Part shown: piece by piece, positions 25,201-64,000 of the stretch | Layout: every line of letters starts with the position of its first letter | Numbering within the stretch: position 1 is the first letter of the stretch | Assembly (NCBI RefSeq): GCF_003073045.1 | Contig: NC_037599.1 | Span: 23,130,555-23,194,554 of the forward strand | Direction: 5' to 3' | DNA length: 64,000 nucleotides | From: Pomacea canaliculata | Taxonomy: Eukaryota; Mollusca; Gastropoda; Architaenioglossa; Ampullariidae | The notes under the pieces: model-generated | Told to the model about the DNA's origin: nothing | What the model saw: the letters and a program-made list of their open reading frames with translations, nothing else | Databases searched by the model: none | Made by a program: the position numbers and the translations under genes

Positions 25201-26634
25201 ACCAACCACTTCACCTCAGTACCACCACCATATATCTCTTTCTAGCCTTCTAAGTTCTATTTTTCTTAGACTGACATTTGACTTGCAGCTTTGATTTTAG
25301 TTGTAGTAGCAGCAGTGATAATAATAGTGGTGTGGTAGTGGCAGCAACATCATCTGCAAAATATTAATATCTAAATAAGACTTCCTAGATTGGATGAAGC
25401 AGCAGTTTGTGTGTGTGTGAGGGGGGTGATTGGTAAAAAAAGGAATGCCTTTTTCTGGGAAAATAGACCATTAAGCCTAAGAGATGATTTAAGATGTTAA
25501 AGTGTTTAAAAGTTTCAGCTGAAATTACAGTTGAATTATTGTACACCAAAAAAAAAAAAAAAAAAAATCCATTCTGCTTGTATGATCCACCACATTTTAG
25601 CAGGAATATTTATTTTGATCATGCAGAAATCATTCTATATTTAGTGTCCATTGTTCCTGAGCACACCTATTTGTGATGCTTATTTTATGCCTTCTAAGAT
25701 GTTTCAGTTGGCTTCAGATTAAACAATGTTGTGCAGGGTAAACTGTGGTATACATTTTTTAGGCAGGGAGGAAGAGAGGTGGGAAACAAGAGTCAGTGGC
25801 AACACCACAATTTTCTTTTTAAAAGACGTTCATGTCTAATCTTTATTTTGTTTTTTTTTTGTTGGAGATATCTGTCACTAAAAGATGTTTCATTTTAATG
25901 GTTTTGAACTTGTTTGAAAGAGCCTTTTGTGGAATTGTTAATAACAGAGAATAATTCAACATGGGCTTAATCAAACAGGAAAGGTGGTAGCACTAGATTC
26001 TTGAAAATGGGAGCACCTTTTGAAACTGAATTATACTTTAGAGCCTGCAACTCTGTATCCATTATTTATTCATTATGGGTTGGGAAGAGGAGAAAGGGAG
26101 ATAAATTCAGCTATGCACATCTGTTTACAAATTCTGCTGCCATAGAGACACCATAAACATGTCGGTGTCAAAGAAGCAGGCACTGTGTTTTTGTCCTGGG
26201 CTGCAGGGTGAGCTCTAGTTGTGATGCTGGTGCACACCTGAATGAATTGCAGGTTGTATTGATTCTTTGCAAGCTGTGCAGCATGTGTGGTCAGGGGAAC
26301 CAGCCAGCTGTAGATGTGGTATACACTTCCTCCCTTTATCATAGTTACTGTTTTGCAAAGCTCCACAAATTAGAAATGATATTCTGTGAGGCAACTTTTA
26401 TAGCTTCAGCTCATAGTATTGCTTGTCAACTGCACATGTAAATATAATCACAACTTTCTGTATTTTCAGGTCTCCAACCAACATGATACTTGATACATGA
26501 TAGGTGCTATAAATTGTTCGTGCAGATAGGAGTTTAAGTGATATGAAGAGTCCTATTCAGCACTGTTTACTTTCAATCCCAGCCTGATTATGTTTACAGC
26601 ATTAACCTAACTACCAAGGAAGACTGGACAAAGC
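22290..26634. other. No gene recognised; repeat fragments
   Basis: This is the 4.3 kb between the head-to-head promoter and the receptor signal-peptide exon. At 22715-22750 there is a minus-strand fragment of the SINE core (AAAACCGGAG, TGGAGAAAACC). The rest is AT-rich with T and A runs (for example 25548-25567). Open frames such as 23601-23783 look like chance. Confidence 0.3.
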
Positions 26635-26740
26635 ATGCATTTATACAGCTCTAATGCTAGAGCAGTCTGGAGGAGCAAAGTATCACTGGTCATCTGTACA
26701 TTCTGGTCAGTCTGTGCAGAGGCCTCTGCATCCCTTGGAA
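26635..26740 (+). other. Signal-peptide exon of the cytokine receptor
   Basis: A frame starting with ATG at 26635 reads a basic n-region (ARAVWRSK), a hydrophobic core (VSLVICTFWSV) and a small-residue cleavage zone (CAEASASLG), then GTAAGA. It ends one base into a codon, and the Ig exon at 28455 supplies the other two, making a serine. An alternative is that a TATACAG acceptor at 26643-26648 starts the exon and the ATG lies further upstream. The phase match and signal-peptide form are the evidence. Confidence 0.65.
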
Positions 26741-29700
26741 GTAAGACCATTTATATGTGCTCATGCTTCATCCTAACATTTGTCATCATCTTTGTTAGCA
26801 CCTCACCCTTATTTCCCTTCACTAATTTTAAGCCATTTTGTCCATGTAAACTAAGAAGATACCCAGGGATATTACATGATGGCGGAGAAACTGACAGATA
26901 TATACGTATAAAATTGAGTTGGAAATACAGTAACGCAGCAGTAAGAGGTTAGAACCATAATCACATGTTCAGACTGATTAATTGGTAGCATTGACTTCTT
27001 GCATTTTTTGTCAGCTTTTATGATTTCCAATGATTTCTTTTTGTTTTATGAAAAATCTGTAGACTTCAGAACCAAAGCACACAATGTCTGATATACTAAC
27101 ATTTATTATTATTATGTTGAAGCATTCCTAATTTAATTATTAGTTTGTAATTACTTGTATTAAGAAAGAAATATTTACCTAAAAAGTATTTCCAGTATCC
27201 ATCTGCTTTCCATTTATCCATGCTATTAGCAAATGCTAGCAAGTATGTAGTAAACAATGTAAGAAAGTGCATCTATGAGGCATTTGAAGTGTGAAATTTA
27301 ACTAATAGTTGACTATTCATTGTGCTGTTTTTGTTGCTGATGTATGTGCTGTTGCATTGTTTTATATTGGACTTTGTATTGTTTGGATTCCCCTTGAAAT
27401 GGGCCGAAGATATCTTCAATAAACAAATCAGTATCACACAATCAATCTTTGTGTGTGAGGGATATATATATTTTATGTTTGAAAATGTTGATTATAATGA
27501 GAAACATGCCAGTAAAAGTCAAGGAGTTATTGTGAAAGACTTACGGACACATTGAAATATTTTAATGCATAAAAGAAAGTAGTGTGTTGGGGAGGACAGA
27601 AAATCAGATCCGTTTATTACAGGATGGTTGGCAGTTAACATGAGCAACAACAAAAATTTCATTTTTTATGGTGACATCATTCACAATATTATCTCACCAG
27701 GAAGGAAGGAATTTTTTGAAGCTATGCATCATTTTGTTTTTAAAATCTTTTGGGGGAAGAACTGAACTGAAAAAAAAAATGTAATGTGTACAAACTTTGA
27801 ACAAAAATGAAATTATATGGTAATTTCACACTAGTTCTCGGAAACTGAAGAGAAAAAAAAAAGAGGCTTGCAGGTTTCACCTCAGTCTACTTTTCTCTTT
27901 CACTTTGTCTAAAACATCTTGTTCTACAATGTTCTAGTTGGATTCCTTTAACCCTTAACTGGTGCCAGCTCCATTTGAATCATACTCAGTAAACTCACAA
28001 TCAGAAACCTAGTCATGAGTTAACTTATAATACTATAGGTACTTCAAGTTGGCCGAGGATTACCGTGATTATGACACAGTTTCATGAAAATTCCCTCACA
28101 CTCCAAGACATTGTACCTTTTTGGTATTGTATTTTGAACATCACTACATAAATGAAAAATGATATTTGTTCTTTTTTCTGTTAAGTGGTCAGGTTTATTT
28201 TATGACTGGATGCAAAATAAATAGCAGAAAATGGCTTGGAACTACACTACCCAAACATGTTTCAGCCTGCATCATCAGAAATTGGTCCTGGTTGTAGTCA
28301 GAAGCTACTCCACTTTCAAGTTTAATTTTTCCACATGAGAGTAAAGGATCTAAAACAATCTGCTTGAAGTACCTACTAATGCAGTTTTTTTTTTTCTGTT
28401 ACAAGAGTTGATGCTTTACACTTCACAAAATGATAAAACATTTCTTCACTGCAGGTATCACTACACAAAGTGGAAAAGAAAATGTTTACCTTTACATTGG
28501 GGAGATGCTGGAATTAAACTGCACTTTAAATCCATCTGTCAGGGGGAATGCAAGTGATCTGACATTTGATGTACGAAATAATATTTTGGTAAGTCATAAC
28601 AAATTTATTTTAAATGTTTACATGCACTTTAGGAGAGTGTCAGAGGATGTCGTTACCAACTCCTGCTAAGATGGAATGTATGCACAAGCTAGCATGCTTA
28701 CACATAAAGGCATGAAAAGAAAATACCATTTGTACAAGACCAGTTAATGTTTGAGAATATTGGAATTAAACTTCAAACTGTGTAGAAGTATGTTTTATGC
28801 GTTCATGTATATAGTGTGTGTATCTATGCACATACACACTTGAGAAAGAGAGAGGATGGAGGGAGAACTAGAAAATCGAGAGAACATGTGCAAATGTGAA
28901 TGCACTGTATGCACAGAAATGTCTGCTTATTATTGCGACTTAGCTTAAGGTTAAAAGCAACAGCATTTGTGTGTTGCAGGATGAGTCACAAGAGAGGATT
29001 TCTAAGGAATTTCAGCACGTTGTTGACAATTTTACATTGCAACTCAGGCGTGTAATAGAAAGTGAGCACGATGCAGGAAGCTACAACTGCTGGTTCCTTT
29101 GTGAGACAGATGACAGTCCTTGTGAACTGATTGACTCAGTAGAAGTTGCAGTACAGTGTAGGTTTATACATTCCTATACTACTTATTGCTAACCTCATGA
29201 AAAAGTCTGAATCAGATTATCACCACTTAAGATTTTTTGGTAGCTACATCTAGTAACTGGGACATGCTATCCAAGTAACAAGTGATCAAAAAATATAAAT
29301 ATCAAAAGTATTATTATTTACTTGTTTCAGTTGTACAGTATGCATGTTTGAACATTGAAGTGGTGGCATGCAAGCATTCAATTTAACGTTAAAAACATCT
29401 TTGGTGTGTTACAGGGAGGCCTCAGAAGGTAGAGAATATCACCTGCTTTGTCTATAACTGGGACGAGAGTTTGACTTGTCAATGGAATCTTGGGGTGCAG
29501 TATCTAGACCCTACAAAGTATGAAAATCCAGATGTCATCATCAGTGCCTTCATCATGCCAGTTTCTTACCAGTATGGGTGAGATTTTTGTGGTGCATGTG
29601 CAGCATGCTCTGCTTGCCTTGCACGCTTCATGCATACAGCCTGACCTTGCTGCTGAATGGAACTTATCATGACTGCCTTGGCCAGTACATAGCTATCATT

Positions 29701-32700
29701 AAACCTCTTGTACAACAAAGCAGAAAATCAAGTTTTATAATTTGCATATTAATTGAGTGACTTGTACAAACTGGTGAACTGGCTGAACTTCATCCAGTTC
29801 TTTCCAACAATCTGACCACACAGTTTGATGTGAACACAGAAAATGGGCTTCTTTCAGGAATGTATATTTGTATATAAGTGTATATAAAACAGACTGTCCT
29901 CTCATTCTTTTTGTGGAAGTGCTTGAGAGCATTATGGAATGCAAAAGGAGGAAATAAGGGAGAAAAAGAAAAGAAAAAAGAGAGAGACAATGACAATGAC
30001 AATTCTTTATTAATGGGAGGTAAAATAAGCAAGGAAATGCTTTTTTCCATTTGGCCCTCGCCCTGTACAGCAAAAGAATAAACTAAGTAAATAAAGTAAT
30101 TAAGTACTATGAGAATAATTAGTAGTAAACATAAGGTAAGGAGCATTAAAAAAAGAGTGCATGTGATGTGGAAGTATGTTTCATTTTGCATTATGCAATC
30201 TATTTTGTAAATCCTTATAATTTTTGTTAATGAATGTTTATTGTTAGCATCCTTGTGTTTATGTTACAAGCTTGCATGTAAGAGACTGACAGTGCACATA
30301 TTTATATAATTACCTTTATAAATCAATTTGGTGTAGAAATTTGTGTGTTTAGCAGACGCCGCCGACTGGGGTCTCCAGTTATTTGCCCTTCTCCACTGAA
30401 CATTACCATTGAGTTCTGTGTATGGACTGGAAATATGGGATCCTCAATATACCAACTTGTGATTAATGTGACGAACACGCAACGGCAGGAAAACAGCATC
30501 ACTTCTAAGCGTCTGAAAACTGATGAGATCAGTAAGATGAATATTTCTTCATGGAGAAGTTTTTAGACAAACATAAACTCACACGCACAAGATGATTCAC
30601 ATGTGCATGCATACACACAAACATACACAAGTGCACATGTACGGAGATACATGTATGGACAAATTGAATCGCAGGCACACCCATGTGCATAGATGCACAT
30701 GCACCAATATGCACTCAGTGAGGAAGAAGATGGGGGCACAAGGAGAAGGGATTGTTATCATAGACTACTTGGCCTCTCTATTGGCAGGACCAGCAGCAAG
30801 TAAATATGTCTGAAATATAGATGTGGATAAAACATATTAAAATGTGCAGCCAAAAAAACAGTATTGCAAACACCTTGTAAACGAGATTCTGAAGTAAGAG
30901 GAAGCAATTCATGTAAAAAATTTTGTCCTGTTAGCAAATGAAATAGCATGGAAGTGTTCTGTATTCAGAAACATAGGAGACAACATGTTTTTCCCAGACC
31001 CAGCTATTCTGAAACATTAACAAAGATTTATTATATCGCATTTGGTCAGTGTTTACGTAGCAAGCAAGTACTATTTGAATTAGAATTAGGAAGAGGGAGA
31101 ATTGTGCTAGTCAATGAATAAAACCTGTAGCATTTTTCTAAAATTTTATTATACAAAATAGAACACTATGTCTGCATTGTGAAAGTCCTTGGAAATTTAT
31201 ATTATGTACAAGCCTTTGAAAATGTCAGCACTCAATTATTTTTGTCTTGACCATCCCTTTTGCTTAGACATACATACAAAGTTGATGTATGCCAGGAAAA
31301 ACTCCATTGAGTATCCACAATACTTTAAGGTGTCTTTGGTTTTGTGTGAATAAATAGGTTTACCATGCCTTAACATTCAAAGAAAGAAAATGTAGAAATA
31401 TTCACAGATTCTGAAACTTTTGAATTTATTATTTTGATTTGTCTACCTTTTATTTACAGCTTTGTCTCATTGATCCCTCATTTATTTTAAATATCAAGGT
31501 TGTGTTTAAAATAGGTAAAGAGTCTGATGTTAGAATCCATCTTGTAACAGCTGGTTCCCTACCTGAGTGGTCTGAGTGAATTGTGCAAATATTATTATAC
31601 TGTCAGGTGTGAGTGGTCTGCAGGTTTGTCAGAAATGTCTAGTTCAAAGTTATGACACAGTTTAGTTAAGTTGTTAGAATCCTTTGACTACCTAGTGCTG
31701 TGCAGTGAAGTTTTGTAGGTCTGATTACCATGTTTCAGTTAAACCCTCACCAGTTCAAGACTTATGGCTTACTAACAAGACAAGTTCCTGTATATCAGCT
31801 GCATGGAATCATGCACGCATGTACCGTAAAAAGATATACCATGTACAGGTATTCTCCAGGGACGGGCAGATGCTCCAAGTGAGAATTTCATTGATTGTAG
31901 ATGTACTTAAGCTCGAGAAATTATGAATATGAATATCATGTAGATTTTCAGTTATATTTCATGGCTTTCTCCACACAACATAATCTGTCTCCAACATAAT
32001 GCTCTGTGTCTTGTGGGCAGGGGTAGGAGTGTCCCCAAAAGGACTTAACCCTCACCCAGTCTTTTGATATGTTCAAATTCCGTCTCTTTTCTTTGTGTTT
32101 GTAGAAGTCATGTATTGTCAGGCTGCGTTCCATCTTTTTATCTCTTTATTAAGTTAAAATTTATTAAAATTGTACGGTCGTTTTCTAAGCACTCCCGAAA
32201 ACGGCATTTTATGAGCTTTTCAAGTTTCTTTAGGAGATAGTGGATAACTTCTTGTTGAACCCAAATTTTTCTATGATGTGTGATTTGATTACTGGGATGA
32301 TCTGAAAGAAAATGTATGAAATTTGTTGAATACAGCAAAGCTTCAGTCAGACTATATCATTTAGGTGGAACAGAACATAGTGAAAAGAAGAAGAAGAAGA
32401 AGAAAGGAGACTTATAACGCGCAAAATCCGAATCCTAGGGAAACGCTCAATGCGCCGAAATGATACAGAAAAGTACACCAATAAAACATTAGCAGCTGCA
32501 GAAAACTAAAAGAGAAGTTAGAATCAGACGGCTAAAAAAGGACCACAGTTGTGAGCGAACGATCTGCTGCTGCAAAGCGCATGACCACTACTCACAACAC
32601 AGGTCCACAAATCAGAAAAAGGAAAAAAAAAACAAAAAAAACCAGTGTATAATTATTGTACCTTCATATCCTGACTCACACCCCAGGAGGATATGATATT

Positions 32701-35700
32701 TTAGTACACTTTTTTACTCAAGGTAACTAACAATAAGTTAAAACTGCCGTGGTGAACATTGAACTTGTGTCGTATTCTCCATAGTAGACATCCTGCTGAC
32801 AAGAATCCTTATTCAGGTTAGGAAGTGCATTTACATACGTAATTTTACCGCAGAGAAATTTTCTAATTAACTACTTGAAGTGTTGCATAGGAAATATAGA
32901 TATTTGACTTAGTGTGCAACTTGCCATAGGTTCAGTCGAAGTGCATGTTTTCGCTTAACAAAAGGGCTTTTCCTAGTCTTTTGCTTGATTTTAGTTTGGA
33001 TAATGAAAATAAAATGGGTTACATTCAGAACACCCTGAACTGTTTTCATGGGATCATTGCACTTTATAAGTCTTATAAAATGAACAATAAAAAGTTCTTT
33101 CTTTTTAGCTGACCCAAGTCTTGCAGGAGTTTACACTCACCCTGTTTTCATTCAATTTTATGTCTATTTATTGGAGACCAGTAATGACTCATGAAATAAA
33201 TAGTAAGAGGAAAAACAGTTTGTATATACGTAAATTTTAGAAGAAATGGAGCTTAATATTGTATGTCCTCAAGAGAGATTAAGCATAAGCCAGACTGTAC
33301 AATGGCTGTAATTGTGTAAAGCAAGCAGGGCAGAGTATGGAGAGTTGAGATAAATGGACGAGATAAAGAACAGAAGATTATGGATTCCATTTCATTTTTT
33401 TTGTAATTTTTACAGGATGTAACAGAAATAAGTGATACTTCTCATCAGTTTTGTGGTTTAAATCCGTACACCGCATACCGTGTGTCTGTTACCTGTAAAC
33501 CAAAGGAGGCAGGATTTTGGAGTGAAGGACGCAACATCACTGTAATAACGGAAGAAGCAGGTAGTAGAAAGAACATATTAACAAAAGTAACTGTTAGACT
33601 TTGACACAGATGCTTGGTATTATATAAGTATATATTATTTAGTGAAAAATGTGACAAAAAATGTAATTTATGATTTAATTAATGCGATGATGATGAGCCG
33701 TTCATTTCTCCCTTGAGTGGTACCAGTCATTGTAGGGAGTACATGGATAGATGCAGCAGCTAACAAGGCCTGTCACTCATGACTGTGAGGGCACATAGCG
33801 GAGGAAAGCAGAGTGCCTGGAGGTCAGGCTTGTGATCAAGTATCACATTTAGAGAGATAGGTATAAAAACTAAGATTTCCACGACTCTCAACTCATTGTT
33901 GTAGTGATAGGCACTTAACCACTGAACTTTTATCCTCAGATGGTTGCTTGAATGCAGACACCACTCCATATTGACAGTATATGAAGGACTTTTTAATGCT
34001 TTTTTTTAAAAAAAAAAAAAAGCATTCTCAGAAAGTGGATTAAGGGAAGTAGCTGCAGATTAACCATGTAAAAATGACTGCTGATCTTTTGTGACTGTAT
34101 GTTCCAAATTGTGATGATCTTTTGTGACTGTACCGGCCAGTATGCAAGAGCACATAGTATGATGATGCTTGTTTACATCATTGCTAAATACTAGGTTATC
34201 ATTACTTTTAGATATAATTAACTTGACCATGAGCAAGTTGGACTGAGGGCTGGTTATTCAACACTTGATCATTTGGTTTTATCATATAGTGTAATAAGCG
34301 TTTTCTTAAACAGAAAGAAACATTGTATTTATCGACTATGAAATAATAATAATGATAACAATAACAACAATAAATTCAAAATTTGTAAAGCGCATACTCA
34401 CATTCCTAAGGAGCAAGCTAGCGCTTAAGAGCAAGAACAAAACATGGACAGCATACGAGGGACAGAAAAACAAACAAACAACATATGAACTATAAAAGAA
34501 TAAACAACCGTACTAAATGCAGAATAAAATCAAATACAGAAAACACAAAGAGGAACCAAATAACAAGAACAAGTGCTGAGAGTAACAGGATATTGCAAAA
34601 GGAAGAGTGTGAAAAAGGATTAGCATTTGAAACAGAATTTCATAAAACTAAAAGATATTTCCTTTGGGAAAAATTACTTAAAGTAGATTTTAATGGATAT
34701 TTTTCTTCAAACGGGGAAAAATATATATGTTAAAGCAAAATCTTACATTAGGGTATGCAAATGTCGCTCAGCTTATTTTACAAAATAATGTATGGTATGA
34801 TAAGGGGAAAATCTTCCACCTTTGCTTCTTGCTTTGTTTTTAAATGATTTTAGGTCCTATTTTTTACAGAACATTGATGGTCTGTAACCTTTATTGAGTG
34901 AAACTAATTCTGTCAAAATAACTCATGATGATGCAGAAAGCCTATATCAGATGTTCTTGATTTATTTCATGATAGCTTTCTTTGAAAGTTTGAAAAATGT
35001 TGTCTTAATGTCAATTGTTTTAGTGCCATCCCAAAGTTTTTCCATTCATCCTGGGAGCTATGTTGTGCAAAAGTGCAGCAAAGACAACATTCGCAATGTC
35101 ACGCTGTATTTCATGGTGGGTACTGTGTGTTGTAAAGAGTGAAAGAGATGTAGATGTTGTACATGCAAAACCAGAATGAGCAGTGAATATTTTTTTTTTT
35201 ATATGAACGTTTTGAAGTAATGCAGCCTTTTGTTGAACACACTTTTATTAGACTCTAGGTTGAACCGTTTGTCCGAAACTGACTCCAGTGGGATTTGAGT
35301 CAAGACCTCTAAGATATTAGTGCCAGGCCTGAAGTTGGGAAACTTGCAGATATACATATACAAATACTATTAATAATAATAATAATTAAGTGAATTTCTA
35401 TAGTGCTTTATCACACCATTAAAGGCTAGCTCAAAGCGCTTTACAGAGAAAAAACATAACCACACAGACATAGGAATAATAATACTCTCTAAACAAGGAG
35501 TTCATTATGTTCTCAAGGCGAATGCCATTAGCACAGATGCGGTAACTACAGCTCAGTTAAACTACCAAAATATTATTATTATCATTATTAGAGTGAAAAG
35601 AAGTTTGTCTGTGCAGTCCATTCCTGAAGATCAACGAAATGGGAAGATAATTGGCTATCAACTGCAATACAATGGTAGGACTGTGGATGTGGACAGAGAG

Positions 35701-38700
35701 CCTCAACTGTTGGCCACAGTGGAAAATATTCCTTGTAATCAGGATGTCTTGGTGCACATTTTTGCTCGAAATAAAGCTGGCCTCTCAAACACCAGCTCTG
35801 CCATTTTGATTCATGCAGGTTATTACTTTCTTTTCATATTTAAGAGTTTGTTCTGACAGAATAAATTTGGTGCATTTAATAGATATTTTACAATGTTGTA
35901 GCTGTAATATGAGTGTGTTTATAATAATTGTGTGCCTGCTGCGCCCGTAATGTGTGGATGGTGCATGTATGATGGAATATGTATGTACATGCATATGCAT
36001 GCTTATTTGGGTTATTAGACGAGCTTACTTTGTCAAAAAATAAGGGGGTAAGCTAGTTTCTTTTACAGGTTTCTTTTGCAGTTGAGATGTAGGCTGTGCA
36101 CTTGCCCTCCAGTCTTTCAGCTCTACTCTCTATGTCTTTCTTCCATCATCTTCATGAGCTTCTTTCTCATTTTATACTTATAGTATCATTTGATATTGCA
36201 GGTGCAGATTCTAGTGATGACTTTTCAGTAGAGTTGTCTAAAGATGAGCTGTTTGCTGTATGGGATGGCAAAGTGAGTGCTGTGAGAAATTCTGTGAAAG
36301 TTGAAACAGAGAATGGTGGTCGCCCCTACACCCTACAGAGTCTTGAAGAGATGACAATCTTCTGGTGTGAGGGAGATGCCTTTGGAGATACCAAACAATG
36401 TGAGGTAGACAGACTTATATACGATGTGTGCGTGTAGAATTATAGGATGATCTAAGAGCTAAAAGTGCATTTTCCAATTGCAGCTTAGGCCATTTTCTGG
36501 TGACAAGTCTGATGTGATGGACAAATGAATGAATGAGTGTAGCTGTGACAAATGAAAAAGGCTTCTTTTAAGAAACTTGCATGTCAGATAAAAGACCTGG
36601 TCGAAATTAATGGTAAGTTCTCAAGTTTTGCTGCAAAGGTAGTGAAATGTATTAGTGATTTGCTTTGTTAGCTGTAAAAGCTCTCGCCACTACCATGTTC
36701 ATGTATAAAAGTTATTTTTTTTATTTTCTGCTTCTTTACTTTCATGATAATTCTGCTATATCACTTGAAAGTGTGACATGTTTACCTTTCAGACAGAGAT
36801 TGAGTGGAACACAACATCCTTAAAAGAGGGACGAATGAAGTTACCCATTCGAGAAGAAGATTCAAAGAAATACATCGTTGGCTTCTCGTTTGGAAATAGG
36901 TCCATAATCTGGGCAAGCTGTCTTTACAAAGAAGATGGAGGTATAGGAAGGAAAAAAGTATTTATAGTCACAGGTCTAAGCTTTGTAGCCTCTCTATGGT
37001 TCCCAGTCACTTAATCCCCAGACACTTCATCCCCAACGCTTCATCCTTAAAATGAAATTTTAACTATAAAAATTATGAAGCTGGCGAAAAATTTAACTGA
37101 AATTCAAATAATTATCTTCATATAAACATCACAATAAGTTTTACAATTAAAATAAATATTGAAATACATTAATAATATTCAAATCATGCTATTAACTTCA
37201 ACGTCATTTGAACCTCTACAACATTAGTTAAAGTATTTTAATTGTAAAACTTATTGTGATGTTGGGGATGAAGTGTCTGGGGATTAAGTGTCTGGACACC
37301 CCTCTCTATCATGGGTTGCAGACTGCTTCAACTTGCGTGCTTGATTTTTCTCCACACATACAATAATAATCTAAAATCATGTTGAAAAAAGGATGAGAAA
37401 CGTATCTCCGCGGATAACATGCATATCCAGGAATAGTGGACCAAACACCCATGTGACCTATTATCTTCAGAAACCACGTATGCTGAAGCCAAACCCAGGT
37501 TTTTCCTGGGATGAAAGATAGCTACAATATTATAAAAAGGGATTCTGCTTTAAATCTTGGTATTACTTGGATGACTCCATGACACTGCTAAAGTTTAGAC
37601 TTTAGACTTTTTTATTGTTGTCAGAGTTACAGGATTTGAGAGTGTATGATCACAGAGCAAAAGCTGATAATAGGGGTGGAGGTTGCATGCTCGAGAACTG
37701 GGTGTTATATATGTACCTCTTTGTTTTTGTTCATTTTTATTTATTTTTAATTTTTTTTTTTTTTGCAGTTCCACCAGAAGCACCCAAGGATGTAAGGGTC
37801 GTGAACGGACAGGAAAAATTTGAAGTTCAGTGGCAAAGCAAAGACTGCAGTTACAGCTATCCATATCACATTACAGGGTACACTGTACAAATTTGTGAGA
37901 CAAGCAACTGTGCTGGTAGGTGACTTAACTATTACCACTATTAACGAGACTGGCATTTGAAATATTGTCAGTTTTAGATGGCAATGATGATGATGATGAT
38001 GATAAATGTGCAGTTTATATAGTGCATAATTACACTACTATAGGAGCATGCACAGAGCTTGATATGAGTACTAGTACATGAAAGAATAGAAAGATGGGCA
38101 ATGAAAAAATACAAGCGACAGAGAAGACCGAGTAGTAACAGTAGCAGTGCAAAGTAATCAACAAAGGGATATCAGTAGGATAGACCAATCAAGAGCCTGT
38201 TGTAAAGCTGTGCTGGATTTATAGATTCTGTGGAAGAGTCTGAATAAATCGAAGCTGATTTCCTTATGCAGTTTACTTTGCTTTATCCCTATAATTAATT
38301 TGTTTGTACAATAAATTCTGAGGAATTGGGCCATTAGCTAATTATGACAACCTTTGTTTGGGACAGATTCTTGAGAAAAATAAACCAAAGTAACCATTTT
38401 ATTTTGCGCATATGGCAGTGTACCATACGTATTTGACAGCATCTATTTTTCTTATTTGGCTCAGCTGTATACCTGCATCTTTGGTATGAACATGTTACTT
38501 TCTAATACATTTAAATTATTTAGCGTATGTTTATCACTTTGTCCTCAAATCATGTGTCACGTAGGCACCACTCGCACTGTGCCAGTTGAAGGAGGCAGCA
38601 GCCGCCACACATCCATCTCTGCCATTCCTGGCTTTCAGTACAACTTGTCCTTGCAAGCCGTCACATCCACTGGAGAAGAGGGGCCATGGTCTGAGTCTAC

Positions 38701-41700
38701 ACTTGTGAAGCTTGATGGTGAGGTGCTTGAAGATTGTGGAATGAAGAGGGAAGTTGATAATTGTGTCAGAGATAATAAATGCTACAAGATGTGTCATCAG
38801 GAAATTTCTGCGGTTACAGAAGAGCAAATGCCATCAAGTGGACTCGATGGCTGCTAAAAACAAAGTGTCAAAATGGTGGAGCCTGATATTGCATGATTAA
38901 TTGTACTAATTCACATTATGTATGTACTGGTACATTGTTTTTAAGATTTCCAACTGATGAAGCATTATTATTATTATTGTTTCTAGCTATTTTTAGATAA
39001 AAGTAACACAAGATCATCAGCATCAAAACGCTTAAGGAATTTGCATTTTCACATAATGGGAAAAGATCAAGTGCCAGCTCAGTAGCATAGTGTATGGCTC
39101 ATACAAACGCCAATGTAATGAGTTAAATTGTGTCATGTTTGTAGTTCATGTATTGCAGTCTGCCTCAGAACATATTTGTACAAATTTCTACTAAAAAAGC
39201 ACATGTAATAAATAAAGAGCCATTTCAGTGTAATGCATCAATTATTCATGGAAAATTTCTAGTGTAATGTCACTTGGCAAATAAATTTTTTTCTTCCACA
39301 GAGAACTCCAGCAGTGGCGATGTGGGCCTTTTAGGAATACCTTTTGTAGCAGCAGCAGCAACAGCCCTTGTGGCTTCTATCATTGTGTGCATAGTGATGT
39401 GAGTCTAAGATTTGTTGGTCTCAAATGTATTTGTTAAAATAAGTAACTAAAGAAGAAAACATGCAGGTAAATATACTGTGTGTATATATGTGTGTGTGTG
39501 TGTTGGGTATTGACTGGATGTGTGCATGCGTATGGTGCACATTCTATGTTTACAATTTTTAATTCTGTCGATTCAGTCAATGCTTTACAAGCAGTGGCCG
39601 CATGCATTATACATGAAAATCACACAGGAGTCACTCACCCACAAAATAACAAAGAAGTAACACAAGTGAGAAATGGACTCAGGTAAATGATGATAAGGTT
39701 TCTCAAAAATATATTAAGTTCTTAAGTGTTATCTAAGATATTTCTATAAAAAAAAAACCCGGAAAAACCAGATTAAAAATATGAATTATTCATGATTTCT
39801 ATGTGTGTGTTGTGTGCTGGCGTGTATAGTATGATGTATTGCTTGCTTGTGTGTGCAGTTACTTGCACAAATACTTGTACAGTGTGTCTTTATGAGCAGC
39901 AGGGGCCTAACTTCATGTGTGTATCTGATTGCAGCAAATTCAGACAGTGTATGATTTCTCGGAAGGCCAAATTTCAAGAACCTATGTTTAAAACACATGT
40001 AAGATGCACTTAATATACTTTTTTTAATCTCACACTGTGTGTGAGTGAGTGTGTGTGAGAGAGAGAAAGGTTGTGTGTGCATGCGAACATGCCTGCATAC
40101 ATGCATATCAGTGCCCAGTCTTATAAATGTATGTATGTGCATATGTGTATATCTAAAATAATGTTTATTCCTAAAATATTATTTCACTGGGTTTTCGCTC
40201 GCTACTTGGAAATATGACCGACTAGTAACCAACAGCATTTATGGGACCATAAAAATCAGTTATAAAAATTATTAAAGTTTTAATACACTTATCAGCAGGT
40301 AGCTCAGAAAGAAAGGTGGCTGTTGAGAAACTCTCAATTTGTATTCTTTAACTTTAGTACAGTGCAAATCTTAATCACTAGGAATTCTTCATTGTATGTA
40401 AAGTATTAATAAGGTTTCATTTTTTTCCACCGGTTGATGGAGACACCTTAATTTGTTGTCGAGCATGAACAGTTTCCCCTTTCTCCGTTTGGCAGGAATT
40501 TTTATTTTCCAATCTGAGAGATGTTGATCCCAGATTGTCTGTACCATCACCCAACTCTGGGCAGCTCGACTCTCCGCAGACACCCACAGGGGCGACCGGG
40601 ATGTCATCTGTAAATACAGATACCACTTACCTTCAGCAGCAAACTGTTTTTGAAGAGCCTCCCGTTGCGATGGTGGGTAAACTGAAACCACATTTCGTCA
40701 ATTAATGCAATTTGAGTGATACTCCTAGGTTTGGGAAAACTTGAACATTTTCTTTCTTTTTTGAAAAGTTAAATGGTGACCATTTTGAAAGCACGAAAAT
40801 TGTTTTAAAAAATAATTTGTACATAAGTATTTCTTGGAAAATGTTTTTAGTCTGAGAGGTATTATGTTGTAAAAATTTGACATAACCGAGTTGAAGCCTA
40901 AAACTGAGCCCGTAGATTAGACCCTCGTCAGGAGACAGGTGTACAGAATATCGCTGGGCACAACCTGAATGACTCACATCTTGTACCCTCGGGCTGTTAT
41001 ATTGGTCAACAGGAAGTCACCTACATGCTGCCCAACCCTCAGACTTCAGCAACAGACAACGACAACATTCCCGAGGGGAGGAGCGAGGCATACTGGAGCC
41101 AAAGATCGTCTGACGGAGGTTCGCAGCTGTGTAACGGCTACACGCGCTTGGGCCTCGATAGCCAGGACGACGACGGCGCGCGCGCTGTGCTAGAGGTGGA
41201 CAGGGGCATCAACCCGCAGGTGGAGGTTCTCGTCCTTCCAGTCCAGATGTCCACGTGCGACATCACCCATCGTGAAGGTCTAACGGCGGTCGGTCTCCAT
41301 TCCAGCAAGATTCCTTCCGTCGTAACATCATTTCCCAATCCCAAACATGACACTACAACATCCGGGTACATTGTGGACGTTCAAGCAGCGTCATCGTCTG
41401 TTATTGGCCATTCTGATGCCAGTCCACCGAGTCCAGCGGGTGTCGAAGATAAACCCAGATGCAACTCCCAGCCAGTGGCAGGCCGCAGCTGGACAACAGC
41501 TGCACACAGCTCTTACGTCCCTGTGACGATGGCCTGCACGAGCAACACGTCACACGTCACTGTAACGTCGCCTGGCGGCGAACTTGCAGACAGCGAACAG
41601 CACTCACTCCTGCCGAGCGGAAGTAGTGCGAACCTCAGTGTCGATGACAGTTCCGTTGCTTCGGCCAGCAGTGTTCGTTTGCACGGGGGATACGTTCAGG

Positions 41701-41798
41701 CGCCAGGTCAGGGTCACGTCGACCCTTACGTCATGCAGGCGCCAGTTAATACGTCAGAATCGTCAGACGACACGCGCAGTGACCCGTCAGACCGGTGA
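26635..41798 (+). CDS. Class I cytokine receptor, gp130/Domeless-like
   Basis: Seventeen exons close in one frame over 3237 bases (about 1078 residues): 26635-26740, 28455-28588, 28980-29157, 29415-29577, 30353-30531, 31739-31878, 33416-33560, 35024-35119, 35594-35818, 36202-36404, 36793-36940, 37769-37915, 38565-38717, 39302-39398, 39935-39998, 40496-40676 and 40921-41798. Order: signal peptide (SLVICTFWSV core), Ig-like domain 36-139 (DAGSYNCWF), cytokine-binding module 139-348 with four cysteines (ENITC, LTCQW, VIC, EFC), a half WSxWS motif (GFWSEG, about residue 335), three FN3-like domains to 672 (NGKIIGYQLQY resembles gp130 domain 4), one span near 681-704, and a 370-residue tail. The tail has YLQQ (771), YIGQ (813), YMLP (821) and YVMQ (1056); YxxQ is the STAT3 recruitment motif of gp130. 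VPSP near 742 is a weak box1 candidate, unusually far from the membrane. Many N-glycosylation sites. A JAK/STAT role is inferred from the family. Weakest points: the start exon and the donor at 35119. Confidence 0.88.
29960..30145 (-). repeat. LINE 3'-end fragment (minus orientation)
   Basis: Read on the minus strand this matches 46235-46390 over most of its length: CTTATGTTTACTACTAATTA, a shared ACAGGGCGAG block, AAATGGAAAA, CTTGCTTATTTT, and a terminal ATTGTCATTGTCATTGTC microsatellite. A short microsatellite tail is typical of some non-LTR retrotransposon 3' ends. It sits in an intron of the cytokine receptor gene. Confidence 0.6.
32380..32600 (+). repeat. Dispersed repeat with GAA microsatellite head
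   Basis: A GAA repeat is followed by ACTTATAACGCGCAAAATCC and AAACGCTCAATGCGCCGAAA. The layout (trinucleotide run, then short blocks around GCGC/GCGCTT) recurs at 34345-34430 and 35370-35450. It is a shared type of dispersed repeat in introns of the receptor gene, with no coding capacity. Confidence 0.45.
33690..33965 (-). repeat. Old SINE-like copy in a receptor intron
   Basis: On the minus strand an A-box-like AGTGGTTAAGTGCC segment and GAGTTGAGAGTCGTGG suggest a tRNA-derived head. It is followed by a CAGGCACTCTGCTTTCCTCC block resembling the core of the copy at 56900-57120. The copy is strongly diverged and its ends are approximate. Confidence 0.45.
34345..34440 (+). repeat. Dispersed repeat with AAT microsatellite head
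   Basis: An ATAATAATAATGATAACAAT run is followed by TTTGTAAAGCGCATACTCAC and AAGCTAGCGCTTAAGAGCAA. The same order is seen in the copy at 35370-35570. Confidence 0.5.
35370..35570 (+). repeat. Dispersed repeat with AAT microsatellite head
   Basis: A TAATAATAATAATTAAGTGA run leads into ATTTCTATAGTGCTTTATCA and GCTCAAAGCGCTTTACAGAG. It lies directly upstream of the exon at 35594, so the acceptor of that exon (ATTATTAGAG) sits just after a microsatellite-rich insertion. Confidence 0.5.
36999..37300. mobile_element. Inverted-repeat element with modular ends, copy 1
   Basis: The left end begins GGTTCCCAGTCACTTAATCC and continues with a CACTTCATCCCC module; the right end is its inverted counterpart, ending GGGGATTAAGTGTCTGGACACC. 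The interior shares an AACTATAAAAATTATGAAG block, a GCGAAAAATTTAA block and an AACTTCAACGTCATTTGAAC block with the copy at 47111. CCTCTCTAT flanks both sides, a 9-bp target duplication. It lies in an intron of the cytokine receptor gene and has no coding capacity. Confidence 0.85.
37980..38120 (+). repeat. GAT microsatellite and dispersed repeat
   Basis: A GATGATGATGATGATGAT run is followed by AATGTGCAGTTTATATAGTG and CATGCACAGAGCTTGATATG, the same general layout as the repeats at 34345 and 35370 but more diverged. Intronic. Confidence 0.4.
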
Positions 41799-44700
41799 CC
41801 GGCAACATTTCCCGGAGGCGGGCAGCTGTAGAGAAGAAAACCTACAACTCTCATAGTGTTTACTATTCGCTATCAGTGGATGTGGGGTGGGTTGCACGAA
41901 GTTGCTTATTGAAGTATAAAAGTACTCATTGACCCCCTTGACCCTTTAAAGTTTACAGTCGCTCGCGCCGCTTCTGCAGCTGACCGCTGGTCATGTCTGG
42001 TGTGCAGCAGAAAGGCAGCTGCACATTGAAACTTGTCCATGTTGTGAGTTGTTCAGCAGACTACACGCAGTGCCTATATACAGACAGGACAACCTGTACA
42101 CTTTCTTCTTGGTGACCCCTTCAGAGTTCACGAGGACCTTTGTATGAGGGAAGGAGGTAGGACCGTTTCTGCGTGTGCACATGGCGAGAAACACAGCAGC
42201 GGTACTCGAGTTGTTTAAACAGTCTTTGTGTATAAATCTACTGTGTGCACAGGTTGGGTGGTCCTGGCAGCGACCTTTTGTTTTTTTTGCACTCACTTTT
42301 CATACGCATGCGCGAACAGCCAAATGCAGTTGCCGATCTACACCTTCACCTTTGTGTCTGCTCAGTCTTTCTGTCCAAAATGAAGCCTACACCCGGACCC
42401 TAATCCGTGCTACTTACAGCTCTACAGGAATGTTCGGACAAGATAAAAAAAAACAAACCTACAAAAATCCGAACTTAAGAAATATAACAGAAAAATAATC
42501 AACAAACAAAATAATTTAATACACCTTACAAAAAAACAAAACAAAACAAAAACAACAAAAAACAAACAAACAAAAAACGAAAACAGAAACACATACACAG
42601 CAAGTCCCCTTCTTTTCGCGATAAAAGTCTTTGATTAAAGTTCACTTGGTAACAGATTTTGAATCCGCCGTCAGGTCCGGAGCTCCAGTGTCAGACAAGC
42701 AGCAATATTCACTCTTCCCTTTTCATCTTCAGTCTTCAGCGTTTATACAACTGCAGCCCCTCAGTGAATCCGTTATATCAAAGAAAGAGCGGCCGTCATG
42801 AGACACTCACACCCAAGCAAAACACTCGCCAACCGCCCTCGTTCTCCGTTCTTATTCAAACAACCACAAAAAATAAAATAAACAGCAGGTTCGTGCAATC
42901 ATAAATCTAATCCAAACGTTAAGTATCTGAATCATGAATGTCGAGCTAACCTGTAAACAACACAAAAAAGACCCCCAAAAAAACAAAACCAACCAAGCCT
43001 CAGACACCTCAGATACAGTGTGTGTAACCCTCACGTGCTCACACAGGTGAGGGCCAGTCGCGCAAGAAATAACACCACAGAAAATACATTTTCCAAGTTA
43101 GCCGATGGTTTAAATGCTTCTCTCCAGGGTATAGCAGGACGAATGTAATCCTTGATACTAGAACTTCGTCACATCTCAGTGAAACCACAAACACACTCGG
43201 CGACCATCTGCAATATTCAAACAAAACTCTCAGGAGAAAACGTGCCTAACCCCCAACTCCGACTGCTTACATCTTGTCCCTCATCCAGTCTTCCCGAACA
43301 TTTCAGTTTTCACCCACCCGGTGTCTGTCACCACAGCCCATGGCTATGACCGCCAGGCCAGATTTTGTAACTGTCGTCAACCGGCCGAGCTCCGGAAAGC
43401 CGCAAATCCTGTTTGTCTGGGTGTGTGTGGATGTGGGCGCCCGTGAGTATATATATATACTGTATATACTGTATATGTGTGTCACCCCTTCCCATCTGCC
43501 TGGCCTAGAGAATCCGAGAATAAGGACAGAACACCTATAGGGGGCAGTGGGTCGCGCAGAGGGTGGAAAGTTCAGGGTACACACAAACACAAAGCGATCA
43601 CCGGTACCCTGTGCCTGCCTGACAGTAACAAAAAAAAAAAAAAGTAAAAAATATGATTGCAATAATAATAATAATAATAAAATCCTTGTTAGGGTGATAC
43701 ACGCATAGCAAAGACAAGAAAAAAAGCTCCATCAAAAATAATAATCTGCAACATGGCATTCATTTTACCCACTACTCCTAAAGTGTCACAAAAAGCAGTC
43801 ACCTGTCATTAACTACAGGTAGAAAATGTACTGCAGTGTTATTAGACAACATAAAAGATGAAGACATTGTGCGCATGCGTAGCAGACATTATTACAAACT
43901 GTTCAATATTTCATCATGGATATATCAGGTGGAGTCACTAATATTGAATCTCACTTCCCAACCCCAGTATCCTCAACCCTCGACAAGGAAACAGATTATT
44001 TTTTCAAATACTAAAAGAGCATTCAAAAGGGTGAAACCCACCTTGATAAAGTACTGCGGGTGGATTTCACAAGATAATGGCATGGTCTTGTTTTGCATGG
44101 GTGACACTATGATCCGGATGAAGCCCCCGGTTATTTGGGTGCAATCTGATCACATTGCGCCTGACTTCCACCCGTTTCTGTTGACGATTTTCACTTCTGC
44201 GTGTGCAGACAGAGTGTCTTATTGTGGACTAGTCATTATGAAAACTGAGCCACCCAGACATCCTTCATCCCTGGCTGCTTGCATTTCGTCGTCTTGGTTT
44301 CCACTCTGGCCGTCTTTACCCATCCACCCTTGCGTGCAGCAAGGAACCCACCCGACTTTCCTCTTCGACACACTTGAGTTGCACATGAACACTGTGAATA
44401 CACCCGAGTATTGACTGTTTTATTGTGGCATGTACCCTGATTGCATGGCAGGGTTAGCGAGCTTGTTGTAAGGGAAGTGAGTGAATTGTTTGTTTGCAAT
44501 GTTCATGGCAGCGGTTTATGGCCTTGTCACCCCGGGTACTTAGTGAGGTCTTGCAGCATATGTCAGACCTGTCTACTGCCAGAACTTTTCACCATTAGCA
44601 CTCCTAATTAAAATGATTTTTTTTTGTTTCATTTTGTCTTTCATTTGTAGCAATTCTAGTCATGATATCTTTCTCAGCTACTGTCGTCACGGTCAGTAGT

Positions 44701-49649: not shown

Positions 49650-50801
49650 CTACTGAGTGCAACCTGTCTCCAACTCAATACTGTACAGGAGGCTGCCGTT
49701 CACGCGCAACTCCTCCAAGGCAGTTGATGACGTCAGTGGCACGTGACGCGTGACAAAGGGGAAGACGCGCTGCAGTGTGTCACATGGCACTGTCCCCGCC
49801 TCGTGACGTAGAGCTTTCTCCGGATCCTCCAGCATCATGTGACACAGCGATAGGGCATCGTCGTGCAGCACGGCTCCCGGGTCGCAGGGGACGGGTACCT
49901 GCAGGTCCTCGAAGGGTCTCGTCCTGAGGGGAAAGACTCGCTGGCGGGGGGTCACGAAGGTGTGGTGGTCGCCCCAGGTCAGACCCCACAGGTGGGTGAC
50001 GTTCTCGCGGTAGAAGCGTATGTCGATGTAGGTCATGCGCACGAGGTCTGGCGGATCCGGTCGCACGTCCTTCAAGCGGAAGGACCAGCTGTAGGGGTTG
50101 GGCCAGAAGAGGGTCGCGCCCTTCACGCCCTCCAACACCATCAGGGTCAGCTCCTGCTGCTTGAAGGGCATGCCCACCACCACACTGACGTCATGCCAGG
50201 GCACCACGCCGTGGTGACGTAACGAGCCCACCAGCGAGGAGTCCAGCAGGAAGTATGTGAGGTCAGCCAGGCGGCAGGCGGCGCTGAAGAGCTCCAGGGC
50301 GTAACGAAGTCGCGCCCTCTCGCGGGGCGACAACAAAGGTTGGAAGGTGCGCGGCGCGGAGACTTCCGTTGAGGGCTGGAGAGGCAGGGAAGGAGGAGTG
50401 GGCAGGGAGCGAGGGCTAAATCCCAGGGTCAGCTGCACGCGGAGGTACCAGTCCGTCACGTGCCGTTCATGCCAGTACAAACGAGCCGGCGAGGCGATCA
50501 GCTGACTTCCGGCCTGCAAGTCTTCGGATCCGGCAGAGGCCTCTGGCGGCGCCATCATGGCGACGACCTCGTCATCTAGAGGAGGCCTCCAGGATGTGGG
50601 CGCCCTCGCTAGCTGTGCCTGCAGCAGCAGGGCGAACATGAACAGCACCGTCAGCAGCGCCACCAGCAGCCACTTCCGCCAAAACATCTGCTGTCGTTGC
50701 CACCACGACACGGTCAGCAGGAGCTGTGACGTCATCATCCGGGCAGGTGATCTGGACATGGACTTCCGGGAGCTGGGCTTAGGTTTTGTCGTTAGTTCCA
50801 T
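49650..50801 (-). CDS. LicD/fukutin-like family type II membrane protein, degenerate motif
   Basis: A single coding exon gives 383 residues. The start chosen is the ATG at 50801 in a CAAAATGG context, just inside an exon whose acceptor (CTTTTTCCAG) precedes 50823. A short basic N-terminus leads to one membrane span at about residues 45-62 (LLVALLTVLFMFALLLQ), so a Golgi-type type II topology is likely. The luminal part has the family core near residues 184-206: LLDSSLVGSLRHHGVVPWHD corresponds to the G-x-L-L-G-x-R-H-x-G-x-I-P-W-D-D-D-x-D pattern of phosphosugar/phosphocholine transferases. Later blocks YIDIRFY and FEDLQVPVP also fit. The acidic triad is not kept: PWHDVSVVV stands where PWDDDxD is expected, with one aspartate left. 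The protein may therefore be catalytically dead or use other residues. Substrate unknown. Coding sequence is markedly GC-rich against its surroundings. Confidence 0.72.
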   Translation of the reverse strand: MELTTKPKPSSRKSMSRSPARMMTSQLLLTVSWWQRQQMFWRKWLLVALLTVLFMFALLLQAQLARAPTSWRPPLDDEVVAMMAPPEASAGSEDLQAGSQLIASPARLYWHERHVTDWYLRVQLTLGFSPRSLPTPPSLPLQPSTEVSAPRTFQPLLSPRERARLRYALELFSAACRLADLTYFLLDSSLVGSLRHHGVVPWHDVSVVVGMPFKQQELTLMVLEGVKGATLFWPNPYSWSFRLKDVRPDPPDLVRMTYIDIRFYRENVTHLWGLTWGDHHTFVTPRQRVFPLRTRPFEDLQVPVPCDPGAVLHDDALSLCHMMLEDPEKALRHEAGTVPCDTLQRVFPFVTRHVPLTSSTALEELRVNGSLLYSIELETGCTQ

Positions 50802-50820
50802 TTTGGAGGGAGACAAACAT
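50781..50820 (-). promoter_or_regulatory. Overlapping upstream ORF before the LicD-like start
   Basis: Within the exon that begins at 50823 an ATG at 50820 opens a 13-codon frame (starting MFVSLQNG) that is out of phase with, and runs past, the main ATG at 50801. The main start has the better context. Such an overlapping upstream frame would be expected to reduce translation; that effect is inference. Confidence 0.45.
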
Positions 50821-50823
50821 GAT

Positions 50824-51495
50824 CTGGAAAAAGAAAAACAGATAAAAAGCGACCCTCGTTCACCACGTTCCCTTAAACACTTTGTCTATCTGTTTGTCTG
50901 TACAATGCTCGTCCCTATTTTTTTTTTTTTACTTGATTGAGCATCATGAGGTGCCGTTCCCCTTATTTCCCCACAACATTAAAGTTCACTTAACGCCTAT
51001 GCCATAATACTGGATGTGTATCCCCCTGAGCAGCGCAGGACAAAAAGATAATTATCTCGCAAATTAGGGTCGAAACGACCACAACAGTTTTCCCGAGCGA
51101 TTGCACTCCATTGCGCATGCGCTTACGTCCAGACGATCGTTTCCCCACAGCTAACGGGAAAAAAGAATAATTGAATGATTCAGCAACACAAAAGGGGCAT
51201 GAATGCTTGCTTCTTTGAAAGCTACCCGTTTAACCCATGTGCAGGAGCATAGACACACATGCAAACCCATGTACACGCGCACACACACACACATGCACGA
51301 CACCCAGAATAAACTGTCTACGTCAGGTACCAGACAACCCGGGTGGGTTCGCGTCCCAAGCTAATAGTTGGTGGCGGAATTGAAAGGTGTACCCGTGCGA
51401 CAAACAAACTTCATCAGGTGAGGGGTGGCATTATTGGTCATTAACAAGGTTTTGACTTACATGTCTGGACAAAGTTCGTGCGGGTCTTGAACCGC
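50824..51495. other. Noncoding; LicD-like 5' intron side
   Basis: Upstream of the acceptor at 50824 on the minus strand this should be intron. No exon was placed. An AC-rich run lies near 51280-51295. Confidence 0.3.
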
Positions 51496-63835: not shown

Positions 63836-63839
63836 CTGT

Positions 63840-64000
63840 AGATAGCTATCTACCCAGAACACCCGGGTTTAATTGTTAGTTTCCGGAGACTAGGTCTTGA
63901 GACACCGCCTCTGTTGTTGCAAATTCTGCTATCTGTTGATACATAAGTAATGTAGTGGAGTACATGTACTACAATGTGCTGTACACATCACAACGGCTAC
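63840..64000. other. Window edge, no feature recognised
   Basis: Nothing identifiable; presumably an intron of the minus-strand receptor-like gene, whose N-terminal exons lie beyond the window. Confidence 0.3.

Follow-up and report, generated by a model that had tools for sequence, protein, structure and literature searches.

A gp130-type class I cytokine receptor gene and its neighbouring relatives in the gastropod Pomacea canaliculata

The question raised by this locus is whether a mollusc encodes a class I cytokine receptor of the gp130 type and whether such a gene stands alone. We analysed 64,000 nucleotides of Pomacea canaliculata DNA, referred to as the window (C10:23130555-23194554, C10 being its contig), in which a plus-strand gene, R1, extends from a start codon at 26635 to a stop codon at 41796-41798. 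A preliminary description had presented R1 as a gp130/LIFR-like class I receptor in a mollusc, encoded by 17 phase-matched exons at 26635-41798. Both claims were borne out: the exons, all bounded by GT/AG, form a continuous open frame, and PDB sequence matches of R1, of its relative R3 and of joint profiles point to IL-31RA and gp130. Judged by its sequence, R1 is supported as a cell-surface class I cytokine receptor of the gp130 type. It is one of four neighbouring related receptor genes (R1 to R4), the fourth of which is possibly decayed. The receptor cluster and its shared exon code are new, a gp130-type receptor in a mollusc is not. Altogether we regard it as likely that R1 is a single-pass gp130-type receptor, one of the four clustered, which signals by the mechanism proposed below.

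The predicted R1 protein comprises a signal peptide, an immunoglobulin (Ig)-like domain, a cytokine-binding module with four cysteines and a C-x-W motif, three FN3-type domains (D4 to D6), a single membrane span near residues 677–695 and a tail of ~370 residues. gp130 itself (IL6ST, grouped here with IL-31RA, LIFR, LEPR, CRLF1 and G-CSFR) is built from an Ig domain and a cytokine-binding module, followed by three FN3-type domains, a single span and a tail carrying YxxQ motifs, a layout that R1 appears to share. The same order had been proposed in the preliminary description. It stands for the module, D6, the span and the tail, while the Ig domain stays below the Pfam cut-off (residues 45–117, E 0.013) and D4 and D5 are placed by exon pairs, intron phases and alignment with R2 and R3 only. 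The gp130-type succession of Ig domain, module, one span and long tail is found in R1 with the same reservation for the Ig domain. Comparison with Pfam, also suggested at the outset, gave a clear result for fn3 (5.1e-16, two stretches, the best at 567–657, which covers D6).

The receptor class itself is indicated by comparisons with PDB sequences. When the R1 ectodomain was compared to the PDB, IL-31RA took the top two of 19 matches at E<=1 (2.3e-4 and 5.2e-4), followed by PTPRF (0.0015). With the binding module alone the top three of 25 matches at E<=10 were IL-31RA (1e-5) and CRLF1 (0.0029). Class I cytokine receptors made up 13 of the 25, the remaining 12 being designed FN3 proteins, Tie2 and receptor phosphatases. 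The IL-31RA match is collinear across both halves of the module. As a control D4–D6 of R1 were searched in the same database and yielded no cytokine receptor among 12 matches (best 0.024); the proteins found were fibronectin, tenascin, designed FN3 proteins and the ROS kinase, plus a single chain of an unrelated toxin. The module of R3 matched gp130 over its whole length (residues 2–196) at 2.5e-14. A joint profile of R1 and R2 matched IL-31RA at 2.2e-7 and gp130 at 1.8e-4, and a profile of R1, R3 and R2 placed gp130 first (3.3e-16), then IL-31RA (4.6e-13) and then LIFR among the best 60 of 151 matches at E<=0.1. IL-31RA and gp130 lead for the R1 module, the R3 module and the joint profiles; LIFR, leptin receptor, CRLF1 and G-CSFR rank lower. 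The R1 and R3 matches together with the D4–D6 control identify by homology the two-FN3 cytokine-binding module that defines a class I receptor.

Several observations weigh against this assignment. The Pfam search of R1 returned no cytokine-receptor model at E<=1, and the profile of R1, R3 and R2 also matches FN3 proteins that are not cytokine receptors, e.g. the angiopoietin-1 receptor at 1.5e-8. The first 316 residues of R2 gave no cytokine receptor in the PDB but a single match to an antibody chain (0.3), and among the cytokine-receptor models of Pfam R2 matched only Lep_receptor_Ig, its best Pfam match overall, at 0.023, below cut-off. Beginning at residue 150, the cysteine motif of R1 reads C-x10-C-x-W-x40-C-x10-C, with a W-to-C spacing of 40 residues compared to 26–32 in the published class I motif CX(9-10)CXWX(26-32)CX(10-15)C (PMC1963337). 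The corresponding spacings in R3, counted by eye, are x9, W, x26 and x7, and R2 is without the W. A strict WSxWS in domain 2 is absent, with WSEGR in R1, WSETS in R2 and QSDWQ in R3. Since gnathostome GHR replaces this motif as well (PMC6997183), we did not treat its absence as excluding class I. Compared to gp130/IL6ST, R1 thus differs in the missing strict WSxWS and in a longer W-to-C loop. Finally, the acceptors of R1 exons 13 and 17 are weak.

Searched with R1, the genome (440,159,624 bases in 24 contigs) yielded 11 matches. Ten of them fall within R1, and the other is located at C10:23266864 (0.037). In 120 kb downstream two further receptor genes, R3 and R4, were located on the plus strand at C10:23265282-23324040 and modelled over the part that begins with the binding module and ends with the span (22 exons). 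From the binding module through D6, R1 and R3 are 25% identical over 564 positions (1e-34). The closest pair is R3 and R4 (35%, R4 being represented by strung exon peptides), and R2 is the most distant member. Splice sites for R3 and R4 were chosen as top-scoring sites without regard to phase, around exon core peptides that had been picked by likeness to R1, and 36 of 44 have the phase of R1 (20/22 in R3, 16/22 in R4), for which the binomial tail is 5e-11 at an expectation of one third and 1.3e-5 at one half. An intron of phase 2 precedes R1 exon 5 and is found in R2 and R3 as well, and the transmembrane exon of R1 leaves with phase 2, as do those of R2, R3 and R4. The R1 gene is more than a chance assembly, since its layout and intron phases recur in the genes next to it. 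Vertebrate receptors probably have identical phases in the module; literature searches for these phases yielded nothing usable.

In three R4 exons (D1b, D2b and D4b) neither end fits the phases of R1, and on this account R4 could be a partly decayed gene or else reflect an error of assembly or of reading. A genome search with R3 gave 22 matches, of which R3 itself accounts for ten, R4 for four and R1 for one (0.055). Two more lie elsewhere (0.04 and 0.24), and five belong to R5, a partial minus-strand copy at C10:23293523-23292224. Its sequence is 40–76% identical to parts of R3 with the frame broken in D4b, so that R5 is probably a decayed duplicate. From the start of R1 to the end of the R4 tail frame the cluster extends over 166,851 bases, with four genes in mixed orientation. 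No third receptor was detected in the 10 kb preceding the window or in ~35 kb beyond the start of R2 (best match outside R1 and R2 0.6); the final 20 kb of the latter stretch overlap with the 120 kb that yielded R3 and R4. The cluster may have further members beyond the DNA covered.

R2 is located on the minus strand convergent with R1, at 58279–64000 in the window and continuing past the window end (L009 4777-1). The preliminary description was silent on the related neighbours of R1, although this one lies partly inside the window. The R2 model has 14 exons for 843 residues that form an Ig domain, a binding module, two further domains, a span and a tail; neither a sixth domain nor an intron inside the Ig domain was found in it. 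Within the window lie the second half of D5 (62842–63016, the upstream exons being past the window end), the transmembrane exon (61761–61833), a juxtamembrane exon (60551–60596) whose weak acceptor (score -8.3) leaves the boundary unsure, a small proline-rich exon (60079–60106) and the cytoplasmic tail with the stop codon (58279–59075), all on the minus strand. As a single pair R1 and R2 match at 7e-8. The R2 ectodomain scored 25.7 bits against R1, compared to 2.9 for the best of 500 shuffles. By domain the z values were 8.3 for D3, 7.9 for D4, 3.3 for Ig, 2.2 for D5 and 0.3 for D2, i.e. the likeness is carried by D3 and D4 and not by D2. All 13 intron phases of R2 fit those of R1 in order, with some R2 sites chosen with R1 in mind; one R2 acceptor is very weak (-8.3), and the last R1 phase shifts if the junction 40672/40932 is used. 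A genome search with R2 gave ten matches in R2 and one on C1 (0.21). In an R2 intron we noticed by eye a run of near-identical units of ~32 bases (61230–61450, minus strand).

As a neighbouring paralogue with no sixth domain found and no YxxQ in its tail, R2 might act on R1 as a regulator or co-receptor. The Drosophila genes dome and latran lie side by side, and Latran, which is without the signalling part, antagonises Domeless (PMC2914635). Domeless, too, is a gp130-like receptor of an invertebrate with a paralogue next to it. However, R2 has kept 289 tail residues, five of them tyrosines, and it is convergent with R1 whereas dome and latran point the same way. We regard such a role of R2 as possible but doubtful. 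The snail cluster also differs from the fly pair in consisting of four genes of mixed orientation.

The R1 model was built from the DNA sequence, for which 26000–42700 was read, and gives an open frame of 3207 nt for 1068 residues; all exons are on the plus strand. Exon 1 (26635–26740, phase out 1) encodes the start codon and the signal peptide, judged by eye, and exons 2 (28455–28588) and 3 (28980–29157) the two parts of the Ig-like domain. Domain 1 of the cytokine-binding module is divided between exon 4 (29415–29577), which contains C-x10-C-x-W and lies in the IL-31RA match, and exon 5 (30356–30531), domain 2 between exon 6 (31739–31878) and exon 7 (33416–33560), where WSEGR replaces WSxWS. 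R1 thus spreads the module over four exons (4–7), the last of which holds the WS motif, and the same is seen in R2 (exons 3–6) and R3; for vertebrate GHR/PRLR an exon order with four exons for the module is described in PMC6997183. D4 is encoded by exons 8 (35024–35115) and 9 (35617–35818), D5, whose FN3 type is inferred from its position and which lies within the R3 alignment, by exons 10 (36202–36404) and 11 (36793–36940), and D6 by exons 12 (37769–37915) and 13 (38565–38717). The transmembrane span (hydropathy 2.8) is located in exon 14 (39302–39398) and the juxtamembrane segment in exon 15 (39935–39998). Exon 16 (40496–40672, an end at 40676 being possible) carries a box1-like motif and YLQQ, exon 17 (40932–41798, a start at 40921 being possible) YIGQ, YWSQ, YVMQ and the stop codon.

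With a generic splice matrix 23 of the 32 chosen sites in the 1068-residue model are the top-scoring site of their own open frame (10/16 acceptors and 13/16 donors), and 9 are not. For exon 9 the acceptor at 35592 scores higher than 35617 but runs into stops, and its start was therefore set at 35617. Two junctions between exons 16 and 17 keep the frame by phase: 40676 to 40921 with splice scores of 0.1 and -2.8, and 40672 to 40932 with scores of 3.3 and 1.1 and 5 residues fewer. From these sequence scores the latter appears more likely. A third option, 40672/41013, leads to 1036 residues and loses YIGQ.

YxxQ is a STAT3-type site. Four such motifs (YLQQ, YIGQ, YWSQ, YVMQ) were counted among the nine tyrosines of the R1 tail, a number reached in 0.145% of shuffled tails. 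The shortest alternative tail retains three, reached in 0.7% of shuffles. The motif was chosen for this test post hoc, after the tail had been seen. In comparison R2 has no YxxQ, the R3 tail frame one and the three R4 tail frames none, so that within the cluster one chain, R1, is rich in STAT sites and the others are nearly without. A STAT locus is present in the genome at C2:7660047, with two neighbouring exon matches (1e-8 and 0.0022).

Combining layout, relatives and tail motifs, we propose the following mechanism. A secreted helical cytokine would bind to the Ig domain and the cytokine-binding module of R1 and join two chains, either R1 with R1 or R1 with R2, R3 or R4. The three FN3-type domains would determine how the chains are spaced at the membrane. 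The tail would be phosphorylated by a JAK bound to the proline motif close to the membrane, and the YxxQ tyrosines of R1 would recruit STAT. We infer ligand binding, chain pairing, JAK docking, STAT recruitment and thereby the coupling of R1 to JAK/STAT.

Alternatively, R1 might belong to class I by descent and yet act above all in adhesion or as a decoy, or it might signal without JAK/STAT. The box1-like motif LSVPSPNSG points in this direction, as it is weak and located at residue 730, ~35 residues from the span, and a pattern of this kind, picked post hoc, occurs in 7% of shuffled R1 tails. JAK was not confirmed by three Pfam models, none of which gave a signal in a control genome either, so that the result does not show absence: a match of PF17887 was rejected as a lysine-rich low-complexity stretch containing a stop, one of PF18379 because of four stops, and PF18377 gave no match in the genome. 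Regarding a ligand, the Pfam IL6 family PF00489 had no genome match, again with the control genomes silent as well; this would be a further difference from the gp130/IL6ST system. On the other hand the tail is long and enriched in YxxQ, STAT is present, and the gastropod Aplysia is reported to possess a single JAK in addition to a single STAT and five SOCS (PMC9334734). We therefore consider a mainly adhesive, decoy or JAK/STAT-independent R1 unlikely. Still less plausible, to the point of being negligible, is that R1 belongs with the ordinary Ig/FN3 proteins of the adhesion or phosphatase type and resembles a cytokine module by chance: the PTPRF match of its whole ectodomain, the 12 of 25 module matches outside the cytokine receptors and fn3 as the sole Pfam family above cut-off would fit this, but it is contradicted by the collinear match in both module halves, a D4–D6 control free of cytokine receptors, the match of R3 to gp130, the R1–R3 alignment and the intron phases shared with R3 and R4.

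Returning to R1 as a signalling gp130-type receptor, we compared it to known systems. IL6Rb (gp130) has been stated to have first appeared in mollusks (PMC8226699, 2021), and IL6R, JAK and STAT have been reported together in Mollusca, with IL6 in vertebrates only (PMC13203501, 2026). These IL6R/IL6Rb-like proteins, described from Mollusca on, are the same kind of receptor as R1. The origin of the IL-12 receptor is placed before the mollusk era (PMC12162339, 2025). The preliminary description had expected R1 to help date the pathway before the protostome split. This expectation was not upheld, because the architecture has already been placed before the protostome/deuterostome split: Domeless and a sea-squirt gp130-like protein led to a dome/gp130-like ancestor at that point (PMC1963337), and molluscan receptors were reported in 2021 and 2026. 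The sea squirt gene has a splice structure like GP130, whereas the module of fly dome is a single exon (PMC1963337) compared to four in R1. By this comparison the gene structure of the R1 module looks chordate-like and that of the fly derived. PMC13203501 uses none of the words Pomacea, gastropod, exon or tandem in its main text, and the main-text parts available describe neither gene structure nor neighbouring genes. In the open-licence literature we found no account of a molluscan receptor cluster, no search having been aimed at the cluster by name.

R1 alone adds little beyond the published molluscan IL6R-like receptors. Four neighbouring receptors, in contrast, provide a handle on the ancestral pattern, which might have been fly-like with few members or vertebrate-like with many. 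Vertebrates have many gp130-type receptors that pair in combinations. In Drosophila a single gp130-like receptor signals, and there is one antagonist (PMC2914635). It is conceivable, and we put it forward tentatively, that the snail genes represent a gastropod-local gp130-type family pairing combinatorially, in which case heteromeric cytokine signalling would be either independent or ancestral in Lophotrochozoa. With R3, which is recognisable as gp130-like from its single sequence, the cluster also offers an entry point for seeking molluscan ligands.

Apart from the receptors, the window contains 53 stop-to-stop frames of at least 100 aa, of which 10 frames of at least 130 aa were scanned against Pfam. 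Between R1 and R2, on the minus strand at 49653–50885, a frame of 411 residues matched the LicD family PF04991 at 6.7e-6, above cut-off, with a best stretch of 29 residues. Just upstream of the window an uninterrupted stop-to-stop frame of 1344 codons is located on the plus strand at C10:23124805-23128836. Long runs of strong FN3 exons were also noticed at C1:14451103-14497839 (minus strand) and C10:14410315-14446826 (plus strand), which perhaps belong to large FN3 proteins unrelated to R1–R4.

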